DNA of 64,000 nt from Methanomassiliicoccales archaeon (lineage in GTDB: Archaea; Thermoplasmatota; Thermoplasmata; Methanomassiliicoccales; UBA472), in NCBI GenBank assembly GCA_038740345.1, contig JAVYMA010000001.1, forward strand, positions 1 through 64,000, read 5' to 3'. The translations under genes were made by a program, and so were the position numbers. The notes below the pieces were generated by a model. It was not told the origin of the DNA and ran no database searches. It was given only the letters and a program-made list of their open reading frames with translations. Positions 15,888-59,810 of the stretch are shown here, in pieces. Each line of letters begins with the position of its first letter. Position 1 is the stretch's first letter.

Positions 15888-17243
15888 TTAAGGCACATGA
15901 TCGCGGATGAAGCTCACCATGCCCGTACCCCATCTCTTGTTGGCCAGGGCGTGCTGGTGCATGTAGGTGCCGATGGTGTTCCTCATCCTCAGGCCATCAT
16001 GCGAGCCGTCTATGCCTGTGCCGCGAAGGACCTCGTACACATATGGGCCGGAGGGCGTGGGCAACAGGCGTGAGTAGTGGAACTCGTGGGCCACGATCTC
16101 CACTCCAGGGAAGAGCGGGTTGTCGGGCGTGGCCCTCGCCCTCACGTAGGCCAAGCCCTGCCTGTGAGTCGTCAGCTCCGCCCTATAAGGGAACACGTCG
16201 GCCATCTGCCATTCTTCACCTCCATAGACGATGGAGCGGCACAAGGCCATCATGCCTCCGCACTCCCCGTATATCAACTTCCCCTCCGCGGATGCCCTCC
16301 CGATGCCTTCCAGAAAGTCGAGATTAGAGGATAGCTCACGCTGATATATCTCGGGGTAGCCTCCTCCCAAATAATGTGCATCGGCTTCGGGGAGAGAATC
16401 GCCATCGGCCGGGCTATAAAACACGATCTCAGCCCCCGCGCACCTGAGGGATTCCAAGTTCTCCTCGTAATAGAAGGAGAAGGCCTTGTCACGGGGGACC
16501 GCCACCTTCACTCTTGCTCCATCCCCTTTTAGGAAGGGACTGACGGCAGGGAAATCGATGTCCGGCGCGCTCTCCGCGATGCCCAATATCCTCTCCAGGT
16601 CGAGCTCAGAGGCGTAGGACTCGATGATGCGCATCGTCTCCCTTACATCCTGCTCTGGAACGGTCACCAGGCCGAGATGCCTCTCTGCCAGGCGCTCCTG
16701 TCTGCGCTCCACCACCCCCACCACCTCCGTGCCGGTCAGGGACTGCACCGCCTCCACCGCCTTCTGGCGATGTCTTGGCCCGCTCACCTGATTCAGGATG
16801 ACGCCCGCGATATGCACCTCGGGATCCAATGCTTTGAAGCCCAGCACGTGCGCGGCGGCGCTCTTGGCCAACGATCTGGCGTTCACTACCAGGATGACCG
16901 GCGCCTTCAGGATCTTGGCAATCTCCGCGGTGGAGCCTTCATCACCGGTGGCGGTCAAGCCATCATAGAGCCCGCGCACGCCCTCTATCACCGCCACGTC
17001 CGCGTCCCTCGTGGCCCAACCGAAGAGGTTGCGCAGCGTGCCCCGATCCATGAACACCGAGTCTAAGTTGCGCGAGGGTCGGCCTGTGGCGGCGCGATGG
17101 AACATGGGGTCGATGAAATCGGGCCCTACCTTGAAGCCCTGCACCCTCATGCGCTTGGAGAGCAGGGACATTATGCCGGTGGCCAACGTGGTCTTGCCCA
17201 CACCGCTGCTGGCCCCTGCGATCACCACTCGGGGTACGCTCAA
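15888..17243 (-). CDS. cfbB: Ni-sirohydrochlorin a,c-diamide synthase
   Basis: This protein has the CbiA/CfbB architecture. An N-terminal ATP-binding synthetase domain carries [16 protein letters not shown], and a C-terminal class I glutamine amidotransferase domain carries the catalytic Cys in [10 protein letters not shown] and the His in AHEFHYSR. It amidates the a and c acetate chains, using glutamine and ATP. The window also has a second paralogue at 21046-22398. This copy is assigned to F430 synthesis because it is the last gene of the cfbA-E-D-C-B unit (ATGA overlap with cfbC); the other belongs to the cbi operon. Sequence alone does not prove the substrate split. Confidence 0.85.
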
Positions 17244-18034
17244 GCCATACTCCCCCTGAGCAGTGCTCGAATATCCTCAGGCTCCATCGGTCGCGGGAGG
17301 GCGAAGTCCTTATTGCGCATCATGGCCTCGGCCAAGGAGCGGTAGGCCGATGCCTGGGCGCTTGCAGGAGCGCATTCTATTACTGTCATCCCCTGGTTCT
17401 CGCATTCCCTTACCACCGGGTCGCGAGGGATGAAGGCGATCATCCTTGTGCCTATTTGAGAGGCGAACTCCGCCACCACATTCCTCTCGCCCTCCACCTC
17501 CCTGGAGTTGCAGATGATGCCCCCCAGTTTGACGTTCAGGTTGCGCAGCCCCTTGGCGATGTTGTTCGCTGCGTATAGGGACAGGTACTCGCCGCTGGTC
17601 ACGATATACACCTCGTCCGCGTACCTCTCCCGCAGCGGCGCCGCGAAACCCCCGCACACCACATCCCCTGGTACGTCGTAGATTATGACATCTATGTTCT
17701 CTTTAGAGAAATGATCCTTGGAGAGCGCCTGCACGGCTACAATTATGCCCCTTCCCGCGCAGCCCACGCCTGCCAGCGGCCCCCCCACCTCCACGCAGCG
17801 CACCCCTCCATATCCGACAGCGACCTCATAGGGCTTCCCCTGGCCCGTCCCCTTCATCATCTCCAGGAAGGCCTGCGCCCTCTGCCCACGCAGCAGGGTC
17901 ATGGAGCCGTCGCTCTTCGGGTCGCACCCCACGTACCATGTGATCAGGCCCTTTTCCGCCAGCGCGGCCGCCACGTTGGCGGAGATGGTGGACTTGCCGA
18001 TGCCTCCCTTCCCATAGATAGCTATCTGCCTCAG
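17240..18034 (-). CDS. cfbC: Ni-sirohydrochlorin a,c-diamide reductive cyclase, NifH-like subunit; CTG start
   Basis: A NifH/BchL-like Fe protein with P-loop [10 protein letters not shown] at residues 7-16, CDPKSDG, and cluster-ligand cysteines in GVGCAGRG and VVCGGFA. With CfbD it drives the ATP-dependent six-electron reduction and ring closure to 15,17(3)-seco-F430-17(3)-acid. The first ATG/GTG/TTG in frame is at 17974, inside the protein and after the P-loop, while a stop lies just upstream. The codon that restores the family N-terminus ([11 protein letters not shown]) is CTG at 18034, forming a CTGA overlap with the cfbD stop. I therefore place the start there: 264 residues, the usual length. 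Confidence 0.85.
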
Positions 18035-19116
18035 GCCATCCCCCCATCAACTATCTGCCTGATGGTCTCGCCCAACTCGTTCTTCAGGATGCCGTGGGCG
18101 CTCATCACCATGGCGTGCGTGTTTATCTCGCCCACGCTCTTGGCGAACCCTCTATCGATGTAGTTGCGCAGCTCCCGGGGCTGATCCGTGACCAGGATGT
18201 CCTCAGGTGTTATCCCTGGTACGGCGTGAGGCAGGCCGGCAAAGATGCGCAGATCGGCCCTTTCCCTCTCCAAGAAGCGTGCCGCCCTCTCTCCCGCCAC
18301 GGGGTACTCGTCCAAGCCTCCGGTTATTAGCGCGAGCTCGACATCCGCCTCCTTGAGGTCCCTTTGGATCTCTCGCGCATAGCGGCGTATGCGGGGCAGA
18401 CCAATCTCTGTGGACAGGTTGCCCAGGTGCAGCGTCTCCCCGCCCACCCTGGAGCGCGCGTACTCCACGGCCCGCATCACGTCCGCGAAGCCGAAGGCCG
18501 TCTCCTTCTTGGCATTCAAGGTCACGCTGACCCTTTTGCCCTGGCGCAGCGCCCTTACTATCTCCAAGGCCACGCTCAGCTTGGTGGCGCCGGGATGGGG
18601 TTCGAGGTACCGGCGGGAGGTCAGGCCCCTGTCCGCCTCTATCAGTGTCGCTCGGGTCAGCATCTCCTTCTGCCGCAAATACTCCTCCTGGCTGATGACT
18701 CCCTGCTGCGCCGCTACCTCCAAGGTCCTGATCGCGCCCGACGTGTTCGGGCCCGCGCAGCCGTGAGTGTCCACCGCCAGCACCTTCGCCTTCAGCCCCG
18801 CTTTCTTGATGGCGGAGTCGAGATTCTCCCCTATGATCATGGAGGCGCAGGTGCCCACGATGCCCACTAATCTGGGATGGAACTCCTGCTCCACCTGTGC
18901 CAAGACCCGCACCAGCTTCTCCTCCGCCCCGAATATCAGATCCCCTTCCCTCATCCCCGTGGTGACCACTCTCACCCCCGCCTCCTCCAGGCGCCGGGAG
19001 GCCATGAAGCCGCAGCCAGCAGGGCCGTGCATGACCACCACCTCCGCCTCCAGGTCGCGTAAGGTGTACATGGCGGCCACGATAGGATTGGGACGGGGAT
19101 GCAGCACTTCAGTCAT
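18031..19116 (-). CDS. cfbD: Ni-sirohydrochlorin a,c-diamide reductive cyclase, NifD-like subunit
   Basis: A 361-residue nitrogenase component 1-like protein (NifD/NifK superfamily) with the cysteine patterns [18 protein letters not shown] and [10 protein letters not shown] expected for binding an Fe-S cluster. It is the catalytic partner of CfbC and binds the nickel tetrapyrrole. It is shorter than NifD, as CfbD proteins are. The frame extends to 19137, but ATG 19116 makes an ATGA overlap with the cfbE stop and gives the usual [12 protein letters not shown]-terminus, so I use it. Confidence 0.88.
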
Positions 19117-20411
19117 GTGAACCCCTCTTTCATGCACCAGAGCAGCACCTCATGTTTATACTCGGCATCCTTTTGCGAGGCAATGAGCTCGAAGCCCTCA
19201 TGCTGCTCGGGGGCGTTCTCGGAAAGGTAAAGACCTTCGACACTTGGATGCTGGCCGAGGGCGTCTCTAATAGCTTTCAGGTCGAGCTTCTCGCACACTT
19301 TTACGCTCACTGGGTCCACCACCACCCCTAAGTCCCTGATTCCATAATCCCTCTCCAGCACCGATACCAGGTATTCGAGGGAAGAGGCCGACACCCCGGG
19401 GTTGCGCTCCTTGATCGTCCATCCTCCCTGCCTGGCCTGCAGCTCGCCCCTTCCCGGTATCCCATGGAAATGCTCCAATGATTCCATGGCCAGGTCCAGG
19501 TTTTCGTTCATCGCCATGAGTGCGGCGAAGCTGGCCTCAAGGGCGGTGGAGTACGCAGCACCCAAGAAATCGCCTGGCATGCTGAAGCCGTAGAGGCACT
19601 CGGGGCAGCGGAAGGCGGCGTGCACTGGCTGACCCAATCTCATGTCCTCCGGGAGGAGCAATTGGACATCACCTCCGCGTCCGAAGGTGATAGCTCTCCT
19701 GCCTTGCGGGAGATGGGGGAGCCAGATATCCTTTTCTGCGGCCGGGAACAGGGCTGTGCCTCCCTCCTTCATCAAAGTCAGCATCTGCTTCTTGCCGTCA
19801 GAGGCGCGGCGCGTGCCCTGCGCGATATGATAATCATGTGATAGCGAGGTTATGATGCCCACGTCAGCGCTGCCCGTCCCCCCCAGGCTCACCTCCAGTA
19901 CGGCGATGTCCTGTCCCATGCGCACCTTGCTCATCCTCAGCACTGAGGCGGGAGCGATGCTGGAGCGAGGCTCTAACACCTTGGTGCCCGTCTTATCTAC
20001 CAAGAAGGCGCCCCGGCTGCTGAGGGCCAGGACCTTCTTCCCCGCGTAGGCCAGCTGATGCGCCAGGAGGTGCACGGTAGAGGTTTTCGCCCCCAATCCC
20101 GTTACTTCCACCACCGGGACGCTGAACCTCGCCAGCCGCCCTACAGCCTCGTGATGCGTGAGCCTGGTGTCGAAGCTCGCTCCTCCGATATAGCGATCCG
20201 GGCAGTGCACTGGGGCCACCAACAGGTCGAAGTGCTCCCTGGGGGCCGCCGAAAGCACCCTGATCCCCTCCTCCCGCAGCTGCCTCTTCATGGCCAGAGG
20301 AGCGGTGTGATACACGTCCACCGCCGTCACCTCCTGCCCCTGACTTAGATATTCTCGGGCCAGGACCTCCGCGCCGTGCGTGAGGTCAAGAAGAAGTACC
20401 CTCAAGCTCAC
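19113..20411 (-). CDS. cfbE: Coenzyme F430 synthetase, Mur-ligase-like
   Basis: This 432-residue protein has a Mur-ligase-type ATP site (VTGLGAKTSTVHLLAH, near residue 105) and a central domain with VLEVSLGGTGSADVGIITS. CfbE catalyses the last F430 step, ATP-dependent formation of the cyclohexanone ring of F430 from seco-F430. Its GTG start overlaps the cfbA stop as GTGA, and its TGA overlaps the cfbD ATG, so it is embedded in the cfb operon. Confidence 0.85.
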   Translation of the reverse strand: MSLRVLLLDLTHGAEVLAREYLSQGQEVTAVDVYHTAPLAMKRQLREEGIRVLSAAPREHFDLLVAPVHCPDRYIGGASFDTRLTHHEAVGRLARFSVPVVEVTGLGAKTSTVHLLAHQLAYAGKKVLALSSRGAFLVDKTGTKVLEPRSSIAPASVLRMSKVRMGQDIAVLEVSLGGTGSADVGIITSLSHDYHIAQGTRRASDGKKQMLTLMKEGGTALFPAAEKDIWLPHLPQGRRAITFGRGGDVQLLLPEDMRLGQPVHAAFRCPECLYGFSMPGDFLGAAYSTALEASFAALMAMNENLDLAMESLEHFHGIPGRGELQARQGGWTIKERNPGVSASSLEYLVSVLERDYGIRDLGVVVDPVSVKVCEKLDLKAIRDALGQHPSVEGLYLSENAPEQHEGFELIASQKDAEYKHEVLLWCMKEGFT

Positions 20412-20806
20412 CCCTTCTTCATCCTTTCCTTGATGCGATCGGACAATATGTCCGCGATGCGCTCATCCGCGCCGATGGGACCGCAGTACTTCAGGACTAT
20501 CTTCTTGCCCTCGATCATCATCTCGCCTTCGTTCTGGCCCTTCTTCAAGCCTAGCTCGCCAGGGATGTCCTCGGTGAGGTGTATGCCCGAAGCCAGGAAG
20601 CAGGGCTGCACGTAGATGGTATCGACCCCTCTCTTGACCAGATTGGCTATTCCCGTCTTTATGTCCGGTTGGTTGAGCTGCATGAAAGCCGCCTCCACCG
20701 GCCCGAACTCCTTCCTGCTCTCCAGTATCTCCGCCATGCGCACCACCAGGTCTCGATTGTAAGCTAGCTTGCTCCCATGCCCTACCACAAGGACGCCCAT
20801 TCTCAT
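20408..20806 (-). CDS. cfbA: Sirohydrochlorin nickel (and probably cobalt) chelatase, short CbiX type
   Basis: A 132-residue single-domain chelatase of the CbiX-small/CfbA type. Metal and active-site His residues are visible in VVGHGS (near residue 10) and SGIHLTEDIP (near residue 76). CfbA inserts Ni2+ into sirohydrochlorin to start F430 synthesis; archaeal short CbiX enzymes also insert Co2+. It is the first gene of the cfb unit. No other sirohydrochlorin chelatase is visible in the window, so this enzyme may supply both the nickel and the cobalt branches. Confidence 0.88.
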   Translation of the reverse strand: MRMGVLVVGHGSKLAYNRDLVVRMAEILESRKEFGPVEAAFMQLNQPDIKTGIANLVKRGVDTIYVQPCFLASGIHLTEDIPGELGLKKGQNEGEMMIEGKKIVLKYCGPIGADERIADILSDRIKERMKKG

Positions 20807-21045
20807 CTTTTAACGCTCCTTTCCCTTTTCCTTTCCTTTTTGCCTGCAAATCGGCCTTACTAGGCCTTTGTCAATGAATAAACTCTGATAAAAAGTTTGA
20901 TGAGAATGAGATGCTGGCTAGGCATGGATGGCTTATCCATCCAATGATTTCCTGTGGAGAATCTTCTCCCGTCCTGAGGCCTCCGCACTCAGAGGAAAAC
21001 GCGCACGACAGGCTTTCTGCTCCATGAGCGGAGAGCGAGGTCGCT

Positions 21046-22398
21046 TCATCTTCCTGTGCAGGCCTCGACGAAGCGCCTCGCTATCCTTGGATCCGTGCCG
21101 AAGTGCAGATGCGAATAGGAGGCGAGAGTATTGCACCTCATCAAGCCATCCATCCTCCCCGATATTCCGCCAGGTTTGCTCAGCTCATAGGCCCAGGCCC
21201 TCGTTTCCGAACTGGGAACGGAGGAATAATGGAACACATGCCCCCTGATCTCGTCCCCTTGACGGGAGAGGATGTTGTCGCGCAGCACTCGCATCCTCAC
21301 ATATCCCAGGGCTTGCAGCCTGTCCCCCATGCGCACCTCCTCCTGGAAAACGGATGCCATGCGATGCGAATTCCCTTGGAGATCGACGAGCCTGGAGCAG
21401 AGGTACATCATCCCTCCGCACTCAGCGTAGACTGGCACACCTGCGAGGCATTCCTCTCTTATCCGGGTGATGCACTCCTCATTCTCCGCCAACCGCTGAG
21501 CGAAGATCTCGGGGTAGCCTCCCCCGATGTACAGGCCATCCACGTCAGGCACCCCTTCCCTTAAGGGGGAGAAGAATTCCAGCTCCGCTCCCGCGGCGCG
21601 CAGCAGATCGAAGTTGTCCTCGTAATAGAAGTTGAAGGCCTCATCCCTGGCCACGCCGATGCGGCAATCTGCACTTTCTTTGTCATGAGGGAACACTTCT
21701 CCTTCCAGGTCCGGCGCAGAGCGAGCTATTTCCACCAACATATCCAGGTCCAGATTCTCCTCCACCATGCGCCTTGCCTCCTCATACCGCTGGGAGTTGT
21801 CCTCCTCCTCCGCCGGTACGAGGCCAAGGTGCCGGCTGCTAAGGTGCGCCTCTTTCCTCTGCGGGATGCCTCCTAAGGATAGCAGCCCTTTCAATGAATC
21901 CTCGGCTATTTGAAGGTGCTTCTCCCCACTAATCCGATTGAAGATGACCGCTCTCAGGTCGACTTCCTTATCATACGAGGCGAAGCCCAGAGCGAGCGCT
22001 CCCAGGCTGCGCGAGGAGGAGGAGGCGCCGATCACCAGGGCCACAGGGCAACGAAGCGTTTTGGCCAGATGAGCGCTGCTTCCCTCCTCGCTGCGGCCGT
22101 CGAAGCCGTCATACAGGCCCATCACCCCCTCGATGACAGAGATGTCCGCTCCCTCCGAGGCGCGAAGGAACGATTCTAGCACGTACTCAGGGAACATCCA
22201 GGTGTCGAGATTACGCGACGGCCTTCCCGCCACCTGCGAATGATGCATGGGGTCCAGGAAATCGGGTCCGGCCTTGAACGGCTGCACCTTCAATCCCCTC
22301 CGCCTTAACGCGGCCATGATGCCCAGGGCGATGGTGGTCTTGCCTACGCCGCTGCGCTCCCCCGCGATCATTATCCGCGGCCTGTGATGGAGGCTCAA
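21046..22398 (-). CDS. cbiA: Cobyrinate a,c-diamide synthase
   Basis: A paralogue of cfbB with the same two domains: AGERSGVGKTTIALGIM at the N-terminus, catalytic Cys in YAECGGMMYL, and the C-terminal His motif RGHVFHYS. CbiA amidates the a and c side chains of cobyrinate. It is the terminal gene of the cbi operon, overlapping cbiE by 4 nt, and is assigned to the corrin branch on that basis. About 240 bases separate it from cfbA, enough for a separate promoter for the F430 genes. Confidence 0.87.
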   Translation of the reverse strand: MSLHHRPRIMIAGERSGVGKTTIALGIMAALRRRGLKVQPFKAGPDFLDPMHHSQVAGRPSRNLDTWMFPEYVLESFLRASEGADISVIEGVMGLYDGFDGRSEEGSSAHLAKTLRCPVALVIGASSSSRSLGALALGFASYDKEVDLRAVIFNRISGEKHLQIAEDSLKGLLSLGGIPQRKEAHLSSRHLGLVPAEEEDNSQRYEEARRMVEENLDLDMLVEIARSAPDLEGEVFPHDKESADCRIGVARDEAFNFYYEDNFDLLRAAGAELEFFSPLREGVPDVDGLYIGGGYPEIFAQRLAENEECITRIREECLAGVPVYAECGGMMYLCSRLVDLQGNSHRMASVFQEEVRMGDRLQALGYVRMRVLRDNILSRQGDEIRGHVFHYSSVPSSETRAWAYELSKPGGISGRMDGLMRCNTLASYSHLHFGTDPRIARRFVEACTGR

Positions 22399-22985
22399 GT
22401 CCTGATCACCAGCACCGAGAAAAGACCGGATTTGACCTTGGGGGGCGCCTTCGGGGTGCCGAAGGTTATGGTCTCCTTGGGATAGCCTAATTCCTCGCAG
22501 GTCACGATCTTGCAGCAGGGCAGGTGTTGTTCCAGCTCCTTGGCGAGAAGGGAAAGGTCAAAGCCAGGCTTAGCCAGGATGAATGGAATCCTTCCTCTCT
22601 GCGCCTCTCCCACCGCCTCCTGGATCGCTTGCGAGGGATCGGAATTGTGCCCATCCACCACCACCGCCTTCACCAAAGGCAGCCTCAAGCGGGCGAAGGC
22701 TAGCTGCATGGAAGATATGCCAGGTACCACCTCCGTCCCCAGATGGCCCAGGCCAGCCAGCATGGGGTCCCCCGTGGAGAGCAGCACCGCATCCTCTGGT
22801 AGCTTGTCAAGGTTGGAATAGTCCTGCAGCACGTGCACCTCGCAATCCGGTGCGATGAAGGGCTTGGCCAGCTCTATGGCCCTGGCCGAGCCGTAGACAC
22901 GCTTGGCCTGCTGAATGCACTCCGCGCCATACTGGGTCATGAAACCGGGCCCGCAGCCCACACCTACCACTATCAAGCTCACCAC
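22395..22985 (-). CDS. cbiE: Cobalt-precorrin-7 C5-methyltransferase
   Basis: A 196-residue tetrapyrrole methylase-fold protein: LIVVGVGCGPGFMTQYG at the N-terminus, AVLLSTGDPMLAGLG for the SAM loop, and VVPGISSMQLAFARL. CbiE methylates C5 of the ring and works with CbiT (C15 methylation and decarboxylation), which is encoded separately here as the first gene of the operon. It lies 38 nt after cbiD, the only non-overlapping junction inside the cbi operon, and its stop overlaps cbiA. Confidence 0.87.
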   Translation of the reverse strand: MVSLIVVGVGCGPGFMTQYGAECIQQAKRVYGSARAIELAKPFIAPDCEVHVLQDYSNLDKLPEDAVLLSTGDPMLAGLGHLGTEVVPGISSMQLAFARLRLPLVKAVVVDGHNSDPSQAIQEAVGEAQRGRIPFILAKPGFDLSLLAKELEQHLPCCKIVTCEELGYPKETITFGTPKAPPKVKSGLFSVLVIRT

Positions 22986-23023
22986 CCCTCTTTATCAAGA
23001 CCTCAAAGAATGGAACATCGCTC

Positions 23024-24028
23024 TCACGCCCTCTCCCCTAGAACCCTTCCGCTCCTGTCCACCACCACGATGCCTACGACAGGATATCTTTCCTTGAACC
23101 TGTCCAGAGTGCGCTCTAGTACTGCTTTCCCCTCAGGATGCTGCATGAGCTCCTCCACCGTCGCCGCGCCCGTTCCGTTCAGCACTTCCGGATCAATGAA
23201 TTTCATTATGAGCGCTGGGAGACCTAGAAGAACGACTTCACCTCTCGCCTCTTGCAGAGCCTTCTCGATGTTTACGCCTACCAGGATCGACTCATGCCTG
23301 GGAAACATGCGCCTGGCATGATTCAGGCCGATGCGCCCGGTGGTGAGCACGACCTTGTCAGCCTTGCGCACCCTCTCCATCACCGTTTGGCCTAGATGGT
23401 CGTCCCACGGCTCCACCAGGCCGGTGCTGCCCAGTATGGAGATGCCTCCCACCACGCCCATGCGAGGGTTGAGGGTACGCGCTGCCACCTCCTCGCCTCT
23501 TGGAGCACTCAGCTCCACCTTGGCGCCTGGCAACCCTGCGGCGGAGAAGGCGATTTGCGCGTTCCTTGCTATCTGCGACATGGCACTGGCAGAGATGGCA
23601 GCCTGGCCCTTTTGATAGAGTGGAGTGTCTCGACTCAATCTTCCTATCCCTTCTCCCGCCTGCAACTCCAGCATTTTCGCCTCTCCTAGATATCTGGCCT
23701 GGAGCTCGATGTTGGCAGTAACATCAGTCACATAATCGCCGGCATACTTTACGGCCTGGCCTATGCCATTATCACCTTCCGCTTCAACCTCCACCCTCAG
23801 GCCGCAGTTCAGCTCCACCTCCACCCTGTCCACGTGGTTTAATAATGATAGTATGCAGGCCTTGACCGCGGCCGTGGCCGTGGTCCCGGTGGTGAACCCC
23901 CTCCTGAGCACTCTGCCATCGGCGAGCAGGACGCCTAATCCGCTCTTCGCCAGGCTCAGCTCAGCGGGGTCCTTGCACTTTCGCACCCACTCCTCGGGGT
24001 ATTCGTAGCCTGTCACCGGGTCCCTCAT
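23024..24028 (-). CDS. cbiD: Cobalt-precorrin-5B C1-methyltransferase
   Basis: A 334-residue protein with the CbiD signature RRGFTTGTTATAAVKA near residue 44 and GISILGSTGLVEPW in the middle. CbiD methylates C1 in the anaerobic corrin pathway after CbiG opens the lactone. The presence of cbiD and cbiG identifies the oxygen-independent, cobalt-early route, as expected in an anaerobe. Its start overlaps the end of cbiC by 4 nt. Confidence 0.9.
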   Translation of the reverse strand: MRDPVTGYEYPEEWVRKCKDPAELSLAKSGLGVLLADGRVLRRGFTTGTTATAAVKACILSLLNHVDRVEVELNCGLRVEVEAEGDNGIGQAVKYAGDYVTDVTANIELQARYLGEAKMLELQAGEGIGRLSRDTPLYQKGQAAISASAMSQIARNAQIAFSAAGLPGAKVELSAPRGEEVAARTLNPRMGVVGGISILGSTGLVEPWDDHLGQTVMERVRKADKVVLTTGRIGLNHARRMFPRHESILVGVNIEKALQEARGEVVLLGLPALIMKFIDPEVLNGTGAATVEELMQHPEGKAVLERTLDRFKERYPVVGIVVVDRSGRVLGERA

Positions 24029-24648
24029 TCTCTTTGGCCCTCAGCGAAGATGGTGATTATCTCGTTCATGGCCGCCACGGCCACCGGCGTGCCTCCCCTG
24101 GTGCCCTCGGTAGAGATGGAGGGGATGTCAAGGCGCCTCAGCTCCTCCTTGGATTCCGCGGCATTCACAAACCCCACGGGACAGCCTATCACCAGAGCCG
24201 GCCTGACCCCTTCCTTGATGAGCTCGCAAAGCACCAAGAGGGCAGAGGGAGCGTTGCCGATGACCACTATTGAAGCGTCGAGGCGAGGTCTGAGACTATG
24301 AAGGCCCGCGCTGCTCCGGGTTATGCCCCTCTCCTGTGCCAGATCCTCCCCGTATTCCAGCAGGCAATCCACCTGGCTCCGATGCCCCTTCTTCTGTATG
24401 CCCACCTGGACCATGCGAATGTCCGCGAAGATGGGCGCGCCCACCTTGAGCGCCCTGACGCCCGCGCCCACAGGGTCGTGCTGGAAGCGCAGCAGGTCGG
24501 CCATGGCGAAGTCGCCCACCGCCACGGAGCATCTTTGACGTATGCGGTCCTCAGGGCTTTGATCCCCTACCCTCTCACGGGCGAGCATTCGGCTTCGCCA
24601 TGAGATGGAACGACCCTCTGGCGTGTCCGCGCCCAGGTCAATATACAT
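24025..24648 (-). CDS. cbiC: Cobalt-precorrin-8 methylmutase
   Basis: The CbiC fold is recognisable from ISWRSRMLARERVGD near the N-terminus, VGAPIFADIRMVQVGI, VVIGNAPSALLVLCELI, and the glycine-rich end SISTEGTRGGTPVAVAAMNE. It migrates the C11 methyl group to C12 to give cobyrinate. The frame runs back to 24762, but ATG 24648 gives the usual N-terminus (MYIDLGADTPEGRSISW) and makes an 11-nt overlap with cbiH. Length of 207 residues is normal. Confidence 0.88.
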   Translation of the reverse strand: MYIDLGADTPEGRSISWRSRMLARERVGDQSPEDRIRQRCSVAVGDFAMADLLRFQHDPVGAGVRALKVGAPIFADIRMVQVGIQKKGHRSQVDCLLEYGEDLAQERGITRSSAGLHSLRPRLDASIVVIGNAPSALLVLCELIKEGVRPALVIGCPVGFVNAAESKEELRRLDIPSISTEGTRGGTPVAVAAMNEIITIFAEGQRE

Positions 24649-25429
24649 ACTTTCTGTGATATCCTCTCGGCGTGATGATCCCTTTGACATGATTCCCCTC
24701 CTTCCAGATCCTGCTATTCTCCCCCCCGATGATGACCGTGCAATGCATATCCACCATCCCATCGTCCTCGCAGAGCTGACCTAGAGTGGTAATGAACACG
24801 CATTCCTGCGGACGATAGGCGTTGCGCACCACCCCCACCGGCGTCTGCGGGGAGAGGTGCTTGAGAGCGATAGCGAGCGCCTTGGCTAGGTTTCCGCTCC
24901 TCCCCCGGCTGCGCGGATTGTACATGGCCACGGGCACCTTCATCTCAAAGGCCAAGTCCAGCCTCCGCTCCACCTCCTCCCAGGGAGTGAGGAGGTCTGA
25001 CAGCGATATCACCACGAAATCGCCTGAAAGAGGCGCGCCCAGGCGTGCCGCGGCCGCGCTAGCGGCGGTTATCCCTGGCACCACCTCCACTTCAATTCCC
25101 GGCTCCTCTCTCTCCGCCAGCTCCAGCACTATGCTGGCCATCCCGTAGACCCCCGCGTCCCCACCGCTCACCAGAGTCACTGTCCTCTCCTTGGCCAGAC
25201 GCAATGCCTCTCTGGCCCTCTCCACCTCTCTCCCCATGCCAGAAGAGATTACTTCCTTTCCCTCCAGCTCGTCCCTCACCAGGTCTAGATAAAGCTTGTG
25301 CCCCAGGACCACGTCCGCTATCCTAATAGCTTGACGTGCTTGGGGAGTCAGGAGCCCTACGTCCCCCGGGCCTGTCCCCACCACATAGAGCTTGCCTTTG
25401 CTTTCACTCCGCGATGGCGACTGTGACAT
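24638..25429 (-). CDS. cbiH: Cobalt-factor III / precorrin-3B C17-methyltransferase
   Basis: A tetrapyrrole methylase with VVGTGPGDVGLLTPQA at the N-terminus, VTLVSGGDAGVYGMASI for the SAM-binding loop, PGITAASAAAARLGAPL, and the CbiH/CobJ-type C-terminus with AMYNPRSRGR and VGVVRNAYR. CbiH methylates C17 with ring contraction. The start overlaps the end of cbiG by 26 nt. Length of 263 residues is normal for the single-domain form. Confidence 0.88.
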   Translation of the reverse strand: MSQSPSRSESKGKLYVVGTGPGDVGLLTPQARQAIRIADVVLGHKLYLDLVRDELEGKEVISSGMGREVERAREALRLAKERTVTLVSGGDAGVYGMASIVLELAEREEPGIEVEVVPGITAASAAAARLGAPLSGDFVVISLSDLLTPWEEVERRLDLAFEMKVPVAMYNPRSRGRSGNLAKALAIALKHLSPQTPVGVVRNAYRPQECVFITTLGQLCEDDGMVDMHCTVIIGGENSRIWKEGNHVKGIITPRGYHRKYVY

Positions 25430-26270
25430 TGCCCCTCGCCCTCCTCTCCAGGACCAATCTCTTGTGCCTCGAAATCGCCAGCGCCGCCGGTTCGGCCACG
25501 CCCTTCAGCCCGATCATCTCCGCCTTGGACGAGGAGCATCCCTGCTGCGAATTCAGCGTCTCGTCGTCGAGGAACAACAGGTTGCCGCCCAGGAGGCGCA
25601 CTCCTTGTACTAGCCCTTTCTCGTCCTGCTTGCGTTCGGTGGTGGCATAGGCGAAGACATCTTCCTGACTAATCTTCGCCTCTTGAAAGGCTGAGGACAC
25701 TGCCTCCCTAACCTCTTCTGCAGTCACGCCCCTGTTGCAGCCGATGCCCACGCAATACCTTCCCTTCCTCACCAAGAAGGAGACGCCTTCTCCCGCCAGA
25801 ATCATTGCAGGACCGTGGATGGCGTACACGGGCACATCGCCCTTGAGAAAAGCTGAATTTACCGAAAGGGTGGAGGATCTGTTGACCACGTCCGCTCCGA
25901 AACGATAAGCCAGCTCCTCCACGGATTCGCGGCCTAGGGCGTCTGTCGCCGTGGATATTACAGGTATCATGCCTAACGAGGAAAGCTGCCTCGCTATCCT
26001 GTTAGCCCCGTGATGCCCTCCCAGTAAAGGTATGGCGAATCTCATGTCCGGCGTCACCACCACCACGGCCGCGTCCCTCCACTTATCCTTCAAAAGAGGG
26101 CAGAGCTTGCGCAAGACTATTCCCACGGCCATGATGGCCACCACCGCCTCGTACTCCTGGAATGCCTCCTCCAGAGCGCTGCCCTCAAGAGGGCGCGTAT
26201 CGGCTCCCAGAGCACGAGCGACCCTCACGGCTGCCTCTTCGTGACTCGCATGCACTACCACTGTCCTCAT
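25404..26270 (-). CDS. cbiG: Cobalt-precorrin-5A hydrolase
   Basis: A 288-residue protein with the CbiG N-terminal and middle segments (EYEAVVAIMAVGIVLRKL, LLGGHHGANRIARQL) and the C-terminal domain beginning YCVGIGCNRGVTAEEV. CbiG opens the ring-A lactone and releases acetaldehyde during anaerobic ring contraction. It overlaps cbiF by 4 nt. The conserved GGHHGAN and GCNRG turns are intact. Confidence 0.9.
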   Translation of the reverse strand: MRTVVVHASHEEAAVRVARALGADTRPLEGSALEEAFQEYEAVVAIMAVGIVLRKLCPLLKDKWRDAAVVVVTPDMRFAIPLLGGHHGANRIARQLSSLGMIPVISTATDALGRESVEELAYRFGADVVNRSSTLSVNSAFLKGDVPVYAIHGPAMILAGEGVSFLVRKGRYCVGIGCNRGVTAEEVREAVSSAFQEAKISQEDVFAYATTERKQDEKGLVQGVRLLGGNLLFLDDETLNSQQGCSSSKAEMIGLKGVAEPAALAISRHKRLVLERRARGNVTVAIAE

Positions 26271-26986
26271 GAGTACAGCACCGACCTCTCGTAACGGAGC
26301 TTTGGATCGACCACCTCACCGATGATGATGAGCGCGGAGCGCGAGATCCCTTCCCGTTTCGCCCTCTCAGCGATGTCTGACAATGTCCCCACGATCACCT
26401 TCTGATCCGGCCAGGACGCGTGATATACCACAGCCGCGGGCGTGTCTGGCGGCCTCCTGATCTTGGAGACCACCTCCTCAATTCGGTCCGAGCCCAGGAA
26501 GATAACCAAGGATGCCTTGTGGGCCGAAAGCTCCTCCAGCTCGTCGTCTTCCAAAGTCTGTCCGCTGGGCCTGGTGATTATGAGCGCTTCCGACACTCCT
26601 TTCAAAGTGTATTGCGTACGAAGGGCAGCGGAGGCGGCGAAGAGCGACGAGACGCCTGGTATCACCTCGTAGTCCACCCCCCTCTTATCCAGCTCGACCA
26701 TCTGCTCCACGATCGAGCCGTAGATGGAGGGGTCGCCGCTGTGCAGCCTTACCACTTTCTTCCCTTCCTTGGCCTCCTTCGCCATCAGTTCTACTATCTC
26801 CTCCAGGCTCATGCCCCAGCTGTCTACCTTTATTGGGGCTGAGGATCTGGATATTAGCTCAGGATTGACCAGAGAGCCTGTGTACACCAACACCTCAGCG
26901 CTCCTCAGCAATTCATCGCCTTTCAACGTTATCAGGTCCGGATCGCCCGGCCCAGCACCTACGAAGAAAACTCTGGCCATCCTCAC
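26267..26986 (-). CDS. cbiF: Cobalt-precorrin-4 C11-methyltransferase
   Basis: A tetrapyrrole methylase carrying VGAGPGDPDLITLKG, the CbiF/CobM-typical VYTGSLVNPELI, RLHSGDPSIYGSIVEQM and IPGVSSLFAASAAL. It methylates C11. At 239 residues it is slightly short at the C-terminus but complete in the core motifs. It overlaps both neighbours by 4 nt, implying translational coupling. Confidence 0.9.
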   Translation of the reverse strand: MRMARVFFVGAGPGDPDLITLKGDELLRSAEVLVYTGSLVNPELISRSSAPIKVDSWGMSLEEIVELMAKEAKEGKKVVRLHSGDPSIYGSIVEQMVELDKRGVDYEVIPGVSSLFAASAALRTQYTLKGVSEALIITRPSGQTLEDDELEELSAHKASLVIFLGSDRIEEVVSKIRRPPDTPAAVVYHASWPDQKVIVGTLSDIAERAKREGISRSALIIIGEVVDPKLRYERSVLYS

Positions 26987-27591
26987 TTCCTCGCGAAAAG
27001 CACGCTCATGTAGTCGGAACGCTCCGGCAGCTCCTCCCCTCGATATATCTTCTCCCCTGGCATGTACATCCTCTCCGCTAGGAAGAATTCCTTGTATCCC
27101 TGCTGACGCAGCTTGGCCGCTGCCTCCCTCGGCCTCCTGACCTTCAACAGGAGCAGGCAGGTCGGCTCCGTACCATCGGATACCTCAAGACCTTGATCCA
27201 CGGCCAGATTGAGGCGGGAGGCGAAGGCGGTGATGCAGCTGATGCCCGGCTCCGCACGGCACTGCACCTCAGGATATCTTTCTTTGAGAGCGGAGTACAG
27301 ATGATTGTAAGTGGAGAAGAAATTGGGGTCCCCCAATATCCCCAACACCACCAGACCTTCCTTGGCATGGGGGGCAATGACGTCCGCGTTGCGCCTCATG
27401 GCTTCCTGCAGCTCTTCCTCATCCTCGGTCATAGGGAAATCGAGAATCTCTGGCTGTGCGTAGGGAGAGACTATCTGAGCGGCGATCTTGCCGGGGACAA
27501 AGACCTTGTCCGCCCTCTTAAGCAGATCGATGGCCCTCAAGGTGAGAAGATCGCTCTCCCCTGGGCCCAGTCCCACGGCCACCAGCATCAT
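26983..27591 (-). CDS. cbiL: Cobalt-factor II / precorrin-2 C20-methyltransferase
   Basis: A tetrapyrrole methylase of about 202 residues: VGLGPGESDLLTLRAIDLL at the N-terminus, LVVLGILGDPNFFSTYNHL, and the CbiL-like PGISCITAFASRLNLAV. It adds the C20 methyl group, the first corrin-specific methylation after cobalt insertion and the point where the corrin branch leaves the F430 branch. Start and stop overlap the adjacent genes by 4 nt. Confidence 0.87.
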   Translation of the reverse strand: MMLVAVGLGPGESDLLTLRAIDLLKRADKVFVPGKIAAQIVSPYAQPEILDFPMTEDEEELQEAMRRNADVIAPHAKEGLVVLGILGDPNFFSTYNHLYSALKERYPEVQCRAEPGISCITAFASRLNLAVDQGLEVSDGTEPTCLLLLKVRRPREAAAKLRQQGYKEFFLAERMYMPGEKIYRGEELPERSDYMSVLFARK

Positions 27592-28130
27592 ACACCCCTC
27601 CCAATCACAAGATAAACTGGATCGATAGGCTTGAACATGTGACCGCCGGCTATGGGGTAGGAGCGGTTTACCTGTAGGTGGACCGCCTCCTCCAAAGCGC
27701 CAATAGAGCTGAGCGAGCTCAGCGCGTTATGCAGGGTATCTATCTTCACCGCGGCGATCACAAAGCGCCTTCTCACTTGGGAAACCAGCGCTCTTATTAT
27801 CCCTTCCAGGCCCTTCGAGCCTCCCACGAAGGCCGCGTCCAATCTGCCAATGCGAGGAAGGATGTCCAGGGCCTCACCCTGCCACACCTGGACGTTGCTC
27901 AGCCTTTCCTCCTCAGCCTTTCTCCTGGTGAGCTCGACCGCCTCAGGCCTCATGTCCAGCGCATGTACTTTAGCGCATGACCTGGCGGCCGCGAGGGTCA
28001 CCGCACCGGTGCCGCAGCCCAAATCTAGGAAGACGTCGTCCGGCCTAAGGCGCAGCTTGCCCAAGGCCACATGTATCACCTCTTCCTGAGTAGGGCCTCC
28101 CCTGAGCCTGTCCACCTCCTTGAGGTCCAT
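27588..28130 (-). CDS. cbiT: Cobalt-precorrin-6B C15-methyltransferase (decarboxylating)
   Basis: A Rossmann methyltransferase of about 180 residues with GGPTQEEVIHVALGKLRL, typical of CbiT, and motif I LDLGCGTGAVTLAAA followed by VHALDMRPEAVEL. It methylates C15 and decarboxylates the C12 acetate. It is the promoter-proximal gene of the cbiT-L-F-G-H-C-D-E-A operon. The ATG is about 25-35 nt from a TATA-like element flanked by two copies of a TTGGATG palindrome. Confidence 0.88.
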   Translation of the reverse strand: MDLKEVDRLRGGPTQEEVIHVALGKLRLRPDDVFLDLGCGTGAVTLAAARSCAKVHALDMRPEAVELTRRKAEEERLSNVQVWQGEALDILPRIGRLDAAFVGGSKGLEGIIRALVSQVRRRFVIAAVKIDTLHNALSSLSSIGALEEAVHLQVNRSYPIAGGHMFKPIDPVYLVIGRGV

Positions 28131-28132
28131 TA

Positions 28133-28151
28133 ATTGGATGTATCCTCCAAC
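28133..28151. promoter_or_regulatory. Imperfect copy of the TTGGATG palindrome (cbiT-proximal site)
   Basis: TTGGATG-TAT-CCTCCAA at 28134-28150, inside this interval, matches the perfect palindrome 33 bp to its right at all but one arm position. It lies between the cbiT TATA-like box and the cbiT start. A repressor bound here would block initiation; the 33-bp spacing puts both sites on the same DNA face. Confidence 0.6.
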
Positions 28152-28164
28152 TAACTTAAATAAT
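28152..28164 (-). promoter_or_regulatory. TATA-like box of the cbi operon
   Basis: On the minus strand the sequence reads ATTATTTAAGTT about 25-34 nt upstream of the cbiT ATG. It sits between the two palindromic sites, so binding at either could affect TBP/TFB recruitment. Confidence 0.45.
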
Positions 28165-28165
28165 T

Positions 28166-28184
28166 GTTGGATGTATCATCCAAC
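28166..28184. promoter_or_regulatory. Perfect 19-bp palindromic operator candidate (cbiT-distal site)
   Basis: GTTGGATGTATCATCCAAC: perfect 8-bp arms around TAT. The identical 19-bp string occurs once more in the window, at 58819-58837 upstream of pheA. It lies just upstream of the cbi TATA-like box, where it could overlap the TFB recognition element or act at distance on the divergent sirC promoter. Confidence 0.7.
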
Positions 28185-28262: not shown

Positions 28263-28889
28263 GTGATACTCATGCTTCCTTTGCTATTGGACCTCAGAGG
28301 GAAGAGGATCGCAGTCTTGGGGGCAGGCAAGGTGGGGCTTCGGAAGGCCAGATACCTCTCTCAGGAGGCTGAGGTTCGATTGGTCGACAGGGAAGCTCCT
28401 CGTTCTGAGGTATCGGGCGCTCAGTTCGTGCAGGCTGACCTGCATGAGTCCTTTTCCGCATTCGTTAGTACGGCTGACATGGTGGTGGCGGCAACGGACG
28501 ACGAGGAGCTGAACTCTCAAATCGAGCGGGAGGCCAAGGTGAGGGGTAAATGGTGCAATCGAGCAGATGGCATGTCCACTTTCCTGATACCTTCAGTAGT
28601 GCGCAGGGATGGTTTCATCATTGCCGTTTCCACCGAAGGCCGCAGCCCGGCCATGTCGCGCTTTATACGAGAATGGCTGGAGCAATCGATCCCCAAGGAG
28701 TTCGAGGACATGGTCAGGCTGCAAGAGAAGCTGCGCTCCTGGGCCAAAGAGAACATCAAAGGACAAGAGAGGAGGGAGGACTTCCTTTGGAGTGTTCTCA
28801 AGGACGATGAGGTATGGAATGCTTTGAGAACAAACTCCCAGGCTGCGTTCGAATTGGCCGTTTCGAAATGGAGGGAGAGAGATGGATAG
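28263..28889 (+). CDS. sirC: Precorrin-2 dehydrogenase (SirC/CysG N-domain type)
   Basis: A 208-residue NAD-dependent dehydrogenase with IAVLGAGKVGLRKARYL, a Rossmann nucleotide site near residue 16, then MVVAATDDEELN and the siroheme-synthase-type segment WCNRADGMSTFLIPS. It oxidises precorrin-2 to sirohydrochlorin, the common precursor of F430, corrins and siroheme. GTG 28263 or ATG 28272 could be the start. Its TAG stop overlaps the hemA ATG, making it the first gene of the sirC-hemA-B-L-C/cobA-D operon. Confidence 0.88.
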   Translation: MILMLPLLLDLRGKRIAVLGAGKVGLRKARYLSQEAEVRLVDREAPRSEVSGAQFVQADLHESFSAFVSTADMVVAATDDEELNSQIEREAKVRGKWCNRADGMSTFLIPSVVRRDGFIIAVSTEGRSPAMSRFIREWLEQSIPKEFEDMVRLQEKLRSWAKENIKGQERREDFLWSVLKDDEVWNALRTNSQAAFELAVSKWRERDG

Positions 28890-58627: not shown

Positions 58628-58970
58628 GGCGAAGCTGGGGAGAGCGCCGAACCCTTCAGCTCAAGGGTCCATCATTGACTTGACGTAGAGGGCCGACCGC
58701 CTTGTCAGGAGAAGCCGCTGACCCCGTTGGAGCCTGAGATAAGGAGGTGGAATCAAGTTTGGCTCTGGGCGGCAGGATCATGACGGCCGGCCCTGGATGA
58801 TACTATGCTTCGATTTAAGTTGGATGTATCATCCAACTATTGTAATTTATTGGTAATATTTATTCTATTTCATTATGCCGTTCAGACTTTTGAAAAATCT
58901 CCTTCCTTTGCCGTCGCAGGTTTTCAGCGCATGCCTTTTCTAAGCGGAAGACATTGGCACAAGATGTATT
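58628..58970 (+). promoter_or_regulatory. Intergenic control region upstream of pheA
   Basis: About 340 bases. The first 170 are GC-rich with no recognised gene. The rest is AT-rich and contains the 19-bp palindrome at 58819-58837, an inverted partial match (TGGATGATAC, 58794-58803) to its left, and TATA-like TAATATTTATT (58853-58863) about 110 nt before the pheA start. A frame at 58805-59053 overlaps pheA and is unlikely to be real. Confidence 0.45.
58819..58837. promoter_or_regulatory. Perfect 19-bp palindromic operator candidate upstream of pheA
   Basis: GTTGGATGTATCATCCAAC, identical over all 19 bases to the site at 28166-28184 in the cbi/hem control region. It lies 16-26 bp upstream of a TATA-like TAATATTTATT and 133 nt upstream of the pheA ATG. 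Exact recurrence at two operon promoters 30 kb apart points to a common regulator. Confidence 0.7.
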
Positions 58971-59810
58971 ATGAGCGCGAAAAGGAAGGTAGCCTTTCAG
59001 GGTGTGAGGGGAGCATACAGCGAGGACGCGGTGCATTCGTATTTCCACAATGAGGTGGAGACCGTGCCCTGTAGCGAGTTCGAAGAGGTCTTTCGCAAGG
59101 TGGAGACGGGAGAAGTCACACATGCCGTAGTGCCTGTGGAGAACTCTTTGGAAGGGAGCGTGACCACCGTCTCCGACCTGCTCCTGGACAGTGATCTCAC
59201 CGTAACTGGCGAGATCCTGATCTGGGTGCGCCATTGCCTCATAGGCCACCCTCAAGCAACCCTGCAGGACATACGCAGGGTGTACTCGCATCCCCAGGCC
59301 CTAGGGCAGTGCAGGAACTACCTGACCTCTCATCCCGAATGGGAGAAGGTGCCCGCATACGATACCGCTGGCAGCGTGAAGATGATCAAAGAAAGGGGCT
59401 TGAAGGAAGAAGCGGCCATCGCCTCGCGCCGGGCTGCCTCCACCTATGGCATGAAGATACTGGCCGAGGACATCCAAAGCGGTCAGCGGAACTTCACTCG
59501 CTTCTTCGTGCTGGAGAAGAGCGCATCCTTTCCCTCCGAAGGAGACAAGACTTCACTCGCCTTCAGCACCAAGAATATCCCTGGAGCCCTTTACAAGTGC
59601 ATAGGGGTGTTCGCTGAGCGTGGCGTGAACCTCAGCAAATTGGAATCTCGGCCTAGGAGGGGAAGGACGTGGGAATACGTGTTCTATGTGGACATCGACG
59701 GCCATGTCTCTGAACCGCAGGTAAGGGATGCCCTCACCGAGCTGGTCACCAAGGCCTCTTTCGTGAAGGTTTTTGGCTCATACAGGCGCGCCAAGGAGCC
59801 TAGCTCCTAG
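58971..59810 (+). CDS. pheA: Prephenate dehydratase
   Basis: A 279-residue enzyme. The catalytic part (about 1-180) has VAFQGVRGAYSEDAV, VVPVENSLEGSV, VYSHPQALGQCRNYL and the Thr-Arg-Phe motif in NFTRFFVLEK. A C-terminal ACT domain (about 195-275) has GALYKCIGVFAERGVNLSKL and the phenylalanine-binding ESRP. It makes phenylpyruvate, with ACT-mediated feedback expected. It stands apart from the aro operon, behind the TTGGATG palindrome, and ends in TAG. The 3' end overlaps the converging aminotransferase gene by 11 nt. Confidence 0.93.
   Translation: MSAKRKVAFQGVRGAYSEDAVHSYFHNEVETVPCSEFEEVFRKVETGEVTHAVVPVENSLEGSVTTVSDLLLDSDLTVTGEILIWVRHCLIGHPQATLQDIRRVYSHPQALGQCRNYLTSHPEWEKVPAYDTAGSVKMIKERGLKEEAAIASRRAASTYGMKILAEDIQSGQRNFTRFFVLEKSASFPSEGDKTSLAFSTKNIPGALYKCIGVFAERGVNLSKLESRPRRGRTWEYVFYVDIDGHVSEPQVRDALTELVTKASFVKVFGSYRRAKEPSS

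Follow-up and report, generated by a model that had tools for sequence, protein, structure and literature searches.

A conserved palindrome as the candidate operator of a DUF4443 regulator at corrinoid genes of Methanomassiliicoccales

Introduction

Why should the same palindrome stand ahead of corrin genes and of a phenylalanine gene in one archaeon? The 64,000-nucleotide stretch of a Methanomassiliicoccales genome considered here (the window, taken at its full length) carries the 19-mer GTTGGATGTATCATCCAAC as an exact copy both between the divergent genes cbiT and sirC and upstream of pheA. The preliminary description of these sites took them as possible marks of an undescribed regulon, in which a shared regulator would govern corrin and phenylalanine synthesis together. 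The methyl-transfer methanogenesis of these methanogens depends on corrinoids. The usual bacterial device for B12 control is a riboswitch, and Rodionov and colleagues reportedly made a comparative study of B12 regulation in 2003. No transcription factor for archaeal corrinoid genes was described in the literature that we searched, and the regulon reported below is apparently undescribed, although we cannot claim with certainty that the motif as such is new. B12 transport genes are a marked feature of Methanomassiliicoccales, and their expression has been compared between low- and high-methane sheep (PMC10804542).

Results

The palindrome in the window and in the genome

Both exact copies of the 19-mer are intergenic, as first described (Table 1). 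When up to three mismatches were allowed, five matches were found in the window, at three places (two of them matching on both strands), against 0.01 expected from shuffles. The third place, also ahead of cbiT, had been described as a one-mismatch copy, which holds over the 17-base core but not over the 19-mer, across which there are two mismatches. The starts of the two cbi copies are indeed 33 bp apart, on either side of a TATA-like stretch that is possibly common to cbiT and sirC, and 2 bases separate the lower copy from the start codon of cbiT. The gene identities CbiT, SirC and PheA are upheld by NCBIfam matches, while the hemA-, hemB-, hemL- and hemC-type genes downstream of sirC were named by eye. 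F430-type (cfb-like) genes at 15888–20806, also recognized by eye, seem to extend the cbi operon, so that a single operator may control the synthesis of F430 as well as that of corrinoids.

Across the 1.79-Mb genome, the core TTGGATNTATNATCCAA, usually preceded by A-R and followed by Y-T, has six exact sites, and the reversed pattern used as a control has none. As all six are intergenic, the motif is scattered neither at random nor over coding DNA. Corrinoid genes are found at every site except those of pheA and the Zn-dehydrogenase operon.

Table 1. Coordinates of the palindrome copies, core sites and associated genes; plain numbers are window positions, and the prefix C denotes other contigs or contig coordinates of the same genome (G000)
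Feature	Location	Strand	Remarks
Operator copy 1 (putative), ATTGGATGTATCCTCCAAC	28133..28151	.	between TATA-like box and cbiT start codon
TATA-like stretch, TAACTTAAATAATT	28152-28165	.	between both operators; read from sequence
Operator copy 2 (putative); core site at cbiT/sirC, window copy 28166	28166..28184	.	exact 19-mer, intergenic; upstream of sirC and cbiT
Operator copy 3 (putative); core site at pheA, window copy 58819	58819..58837	.	exact 19-mer, intergenic; upstream of pheA; not kept in relatives
cbiT, first gene of cbi operon	27588..28130	-	TIGR02469, 80.7 bits (cut-off 78.3)
Remaining cbi operon (CbiL, F, G, H/J, D, E, A, CbiX types)	15888..27591	-	translations read by eye
sirC, precorrin-2 dehydrogenase (siroheme-synthase N-domain)	28263..28889	+	TIGR01470, 106.6 bits (cut-off 62.3)
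ask-pheA spacer, 343 bp	58628..58970	+	carries operator; missing in congener G008, where ask and pheA abut
pheA, prephenate dehydratase	58971..59810	+	NF008865, 268.6 bits (cut-off 219)
Core site	C1:81548		40 bases ahead of btuF, then btuC, BtuD-type ATPase, cobD, CbiB-type gene
Core site	C1:72165		13 bases ahead of cobT (TIGR00303)
Core site	C22:6353		3 bases ahead of cobQ
Core site	C4:42809		ahead of Zn-dehydrogenase gene, then trpD-type gene
Short DUF4443 gene of this genome	G000:C17:6195-6488	-	just downstream of methionine adenosyltransferase gene

Conservation and the genes served

The core was found in 20 of 22 genomes of the family (15 of the 15 good ones) and in 90 of 400 genomes of the class, mostly from the same order, with no match to the reversed pattern in any of the 400. 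The 183 distinct sites collected comprise 173 in intergenic DNA and 10 within predicted ORFs. A simple script served to call the genes near the sites, several of which were named by eye; by clustering and naming, genes of corrinoid or tetrapyrrole transport or synthesis adjoin 103 of the 173 intergenic sites (123 once the Zn-dehydrogenase/TrpD2 operon is included), and about 40% of the intergenic sites lie beside genes without an evident corrinoid role. This naming agrees with HMM counts over 139 target proteins, which gave 31 Peripla_BP_2 domains, 18 Zn-dehydrogenases, 10 PQQ beta-propellers of the DUF4430-type secreted group, 5 NAD_binding_7 domains (SirC type) and 4 FecCD domains, as well as CobT, CobN, BtuR, CbiX and CbiA domains. 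The 103 sites at corrinoid and tetrapyrrole genes thus argue for a corrinoid regulon. Apart from pheA, the operator is kept ahead of orthologous genes that are related in function, as is typical of palindromic-operator regulons, and the predicted regulon is one of corrinoid uptake and synthesis, kept across the order and beyond. The original proposal holds in that the palindrome probably marks a shared regulator and an apparently undescribed regulon, but the regulon is defined by corrinoid genes and not by the pairing of corrin with phenylalanine synthesis.

Several groups of sites touch on other genes. Two loci (L174, L182) have the operator beside ribonucleotide-reductase-type genes, named by eye; ribonucleotide reductase is a classic B12-dependent target in bacteria. 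A radical-SAM-type gene adjoins the operator in six further loci (L096, L099, L116, L125, L131 and L149), an arrangement kept across two families, and four of these loci also have a divergent amidohydrolase-type gene on the operator's other side; from naming by eye and Pfam counts, these loci are possibly corrinoid-related. Elsewhere (L252–L257, L269, L299 and L300), DUF4430-type secreted proteins are encoded near DUF6580-type membrane proteins, the DUF6580 domain having been tested in L255 and, weakly, in L299. The membrane proteins look like S components of ECF transporters and form, with the DUF4430 proteins, a candidate corrinoid uptake pair.

The aromatic link that is conserved is not pheA but a second trpD in an operon with the Zn-dehydrogenase gene. 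In this genome (L324:511-2710, equal to G000:C4:42810-45009) the operator is followed by a threonine-dehydrogenase-like Zn-dehydrogenase and the second TrpD (TIGR01245, 281 bits), which is outscored by the genome's other TrpD, at C27. The same operon was seen in L044, L094, L101, L106, L107, L127, L133 and L143 and is kept in most genomes of the family; a step of corrinoid lower-ligand metabolism is a possible role for it.

The pheA site itself behaves differently. With a matrix built from the intergenic sites, the pheA promoter of the window scores 34.7, whereas none of the 20 other genomes of the family in which pheA was matched has a comparable site near the gene. The best stretch around pheA in these genomes scores below 0, and they include congeners at 86% and 75% protein identity. 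Conservation at orthologous promoters, which the preliminary description had made the test of its proposal, is therefore seen for the corrin genes and not for pheA. The gene layout of the pheA locus differs from that of both congeners, and the spacer that carries the operator also contains a 22-codon ORF starting at 58874; that this spacer is a copied element was ruled out, as the genome has no second copy. The absence from 20 loci and the different layout together indicate a real but lineage-specific site, most likely a recent addition, and the putative corrinoid–phenylalanine link is peculiar to this single genome.

A winged-helix DUF4443 protein as the candidate regulator

Regulator candidates were drawn by screening the genes beside the sites. 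One family recurs there in unrelated lineages, namely proteins of about 200 residues that begin with a winged helix (CggR_N, PH0730-like_N) and end with a DUF4443 domain (PF14544). Three proteins of this genome match PF14544, all above the Pfam cut-off (best E 1.3e-31); we infer that the short one is the relevant paralog, and it aligns over its full length with the orthologue in L095, in which both CggR_N and PH0730-like_N are matched. The recognition-helix region GEGS-R is kept from this genome's protein to PH0730 of Pyrococcus horikoshii. An alignment mixing in PH0730 was too divergent for use in a genome scan.

A DUF4443 gene adjoins the site in families f1, f2, f4, f5, f13, f15 and f21. 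It follows the methionine adenosyltransferase gene in three families of the order (f1, f4 and f5) and in two from other orders (f13 and f21), and in these same five families the site lies downstream of the DUF4443 gene, mostly ahead of a gene of the secreted beta-propeller/DUF4430 type. The methionine adenosyltransferase-DUF4443 gene order was observed in L223, L095, L067, L113, L250, L260–L262, L264 and L266; in L159, the DUF4443 gene belongs to an operon whose promoter bears the site. Within the 400 class genomes, all listed members of the order have PF14544, as do 22 genomes from elsewhere in the class. Beyond the order, the motif and DUF4443 occur together in 17 genomes, the motif alone in 2, DUF4443 alone in 5 and neither in about 276, an association (odds ratio ~470, p ~2e-21) that is uncorrected for shared ancestry but whose concordant genomes span six families. 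The correspondence is not complete: an exact core site is missing from some members of the order that do have DUF4443, and most DUF4443 genes of f2 and f3 have no site adjoining. On this combined evidence from sequence and gene neighborhood, the regulator of the palindrome is likely the short winged-helix DUF4443 protein. The two longer paralogs of this genome (L224 and L225; 320–341 aa) have a DUF2111-type C-terminus, and just before the start of the one at L224 stands a similar palindrome, ATGGATGATTTATCCAT (L224:1187-1203), which is perhaps a sister operator; its position suggests that the specificities of the paralogs may overlap.

As an independent test, the exact 19-mer was scanned in 84,980 genomes (257 Gb), for which about two matches are expected by base counting. 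The 21 stretches returned are nearly all from Methanomassiliicoccales or Thermoplasmata records, and in the two least related, from a member of the Micrarchaeota (L294) and the archaeon Bin_28_2_1 (L275), a DUF4443 gene lies immediately beside the site, which is the only one in either genome at up to one mismatch. DUF4443 exceeds the cut-off in 12 of 245 sampled Micrarchaeota genomes, and 10 of the 12 genes have the palindrome or a variant at their promoter (four with exact arms, six with variants such as TTGGCGAATCCATCCAA or ATGGATGATTCATCCAG); in 13 comparison loci, the best match always had at least two arm mismatches. Also next to the L294 site are the genes of a divergent alpha-toroid protein and of a DUF4430 protein. 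Transcobalamins bear DUF4430 at the C-terminus (PMC4350170), which fits a role of the Micrarchaeota neighbors in corrinoid capture, though not all of them match DUF4430; when the toroid and DUF4430 proteins were searched by sequence against the PDB, no transcobalamin was matched. Modeling the Micrarchaeota DUF4443 protein from its single sequence gave a poor structure (pLDDT 54), which was set aside.

Promoter architecture and proposed mechanism

When 110 sites were oriented on the start codon, their positions ranged from about −10 to +70 bases ahead of it. A+T-rich zones occur immediately upstream of the site and ~31–39 bases upstream of its center. At cobQ, the Zn-dehydrogenase operon, cbiT and pheA, the operator lies directly or almost directly against a TATA-like box. 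Because the operator lies between TATA box and start codon, repression rather than activation is suggested. In the proposed mechanism, a DUF4443 dimer bound in this interval to both inverted TTGGAT arms would keep the archaeal initiation complex from assembling or transcription from starting. When corrinoid is sufficient, both the uptake targets (btuFCD, DUF4430-type secreted proteins and cobalt transport) and the synthesis targets (sirC, cbi, cobT, cobQ, cobD and cbiB) would be repressed. To judge from these target genes, the ligand is probably a corrinoid, with Co2+ or a precursor as a possible alternative.

Discussion

We consider it highly probable that the palindrome is the operator of a corrinoid-responsive DUF4443 transcription factor, which would control the genes of corrinoid uptake and synthesis. 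The same protein and operator might instead answer to cobalt, SAM or a tetrapyrrole precursor and not to the finished corrinoid, a reading that we hold to be doubtful but worth serious attention: the targets include cobalt transport (CbiM, CbiQ) and the early tetrapyrrole gene sirC, and DUF4443 comes after methionine adenosyltransferase in several families, yet most sites serve corrinoid-type uptake proteins, and the neighbors in Micrarchaeota are secreted proteins, one with the transcobalamin domain DUF4430. Residues conserved among DUF4443 proteins include no cysteine and a single histidine, making metal sensing less likely. The regulon could also be real but bound by another protein, and here zinc-ribbon proteins with an HTH-like tail (genes starting 11–19 bases from the site in L159, L164, L171, L183 and L190), Fur (L147), NikR (L187) and Lrp/AsnC (Lrp genes near sites in L104 and L070) come into question. 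All were set aside as too narrow in distribution, each being seen at no more than a few sites or in a single genus, whereas only DUF4443 recurs across orders and in another phylum; as the L159 zinc-ribbon gene moreover shares its operon with DUF4443, we regard a different binding protein as improbable. The small zinc-ribbon proteins, which lie beside riboflavin genes or mntP, could be co-regulators.

A joint regulon of corrin and phenylalanine synthesis, as first envisaged, has in its favor an exact operator at pheA, of a length too great for chance and with a TATA-like box against it, but the 20 other pheA loci of the family that are devoid of a site and the altered gene layout relative to both congeners make it unlikely. 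That short perfect palindromes present in several copies might be a mobile or structural repeat (a REP-like element, terminator or RNA hairpin) with no regulatory meaning is in effect refuted by the strong functional bias of the sites and their cross-phylum tie to one regulator family. In addition, similarity between copies stops ~20–27 bases out, the sites stand at the start-codon ends of genes beside TATA-like DNA, and no Rfam match fell on the sites in the loci scanned. A cobalamin riboswitch was rejected as well, as the Rfam scan, which covered the window together with five loci of targets or regulators, gave only a tRNA.

The operator model assigns the uncharacterized DUF4443 family a concrete candidate operator and gene set, and it opens the control of B12 in methane-producing archaea to direct tests. 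As operator and regulator are also paired in Micrarchaeota, archaea with tiny genomes may control their B12 scavenging in this way, and roles are suggested for the DUF4430 secreted proteins, the DUF6580 membrane proteins and the second TrpD. A bolder extension, which we offer as speculation with rather long odds, is that DUF4443 proteins are cross-phylum archaeal corrinoid-sensing repressors, that in these methanogens the regulon extends to TrpD2 and the Zn-dehydrogenase, which would make or activate an unusual aromatic-derived lower ligand of the corrinoid, and that the pheA site would, in this species specifically, couple aromatic flux to that branch.

The closest characterized structure is that of PH0730 from P. 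horikoshii (PDB 2P8T), a full-length homologue (E 4e-21) with the same layout of winged helix and DUF4443. The literature searched yielded no function, operator or ligand for PH0730 and no description of DUF4443 as a regulator; a Pyrococcus survey places PH0730 among winged-helix families (PMC6316755). The CggR/SorC repressors have a related winged-helix DNA-binding domain, joined there to a sugar-binding effector domain and here to the unrelated DUF4443. Regulators of the CarH and AerR type resemble the proposed system in being protein-based transcriptional control linked to B12. They use a B12-binding domain, which was absent among the Pfam matches of five DUF4443 proteins, and control light responses. 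Bacterial cobalamin riboswitch regulons share the gene set (btuFCD, cbi/cob, cobalt transport and some ribonucleotide reductase neighbors) but act through RNA, whereas the sites described here, with no Rfam riboswitch in the loci scanned, would place much the same genes under a DNA operator and a candidate protein.
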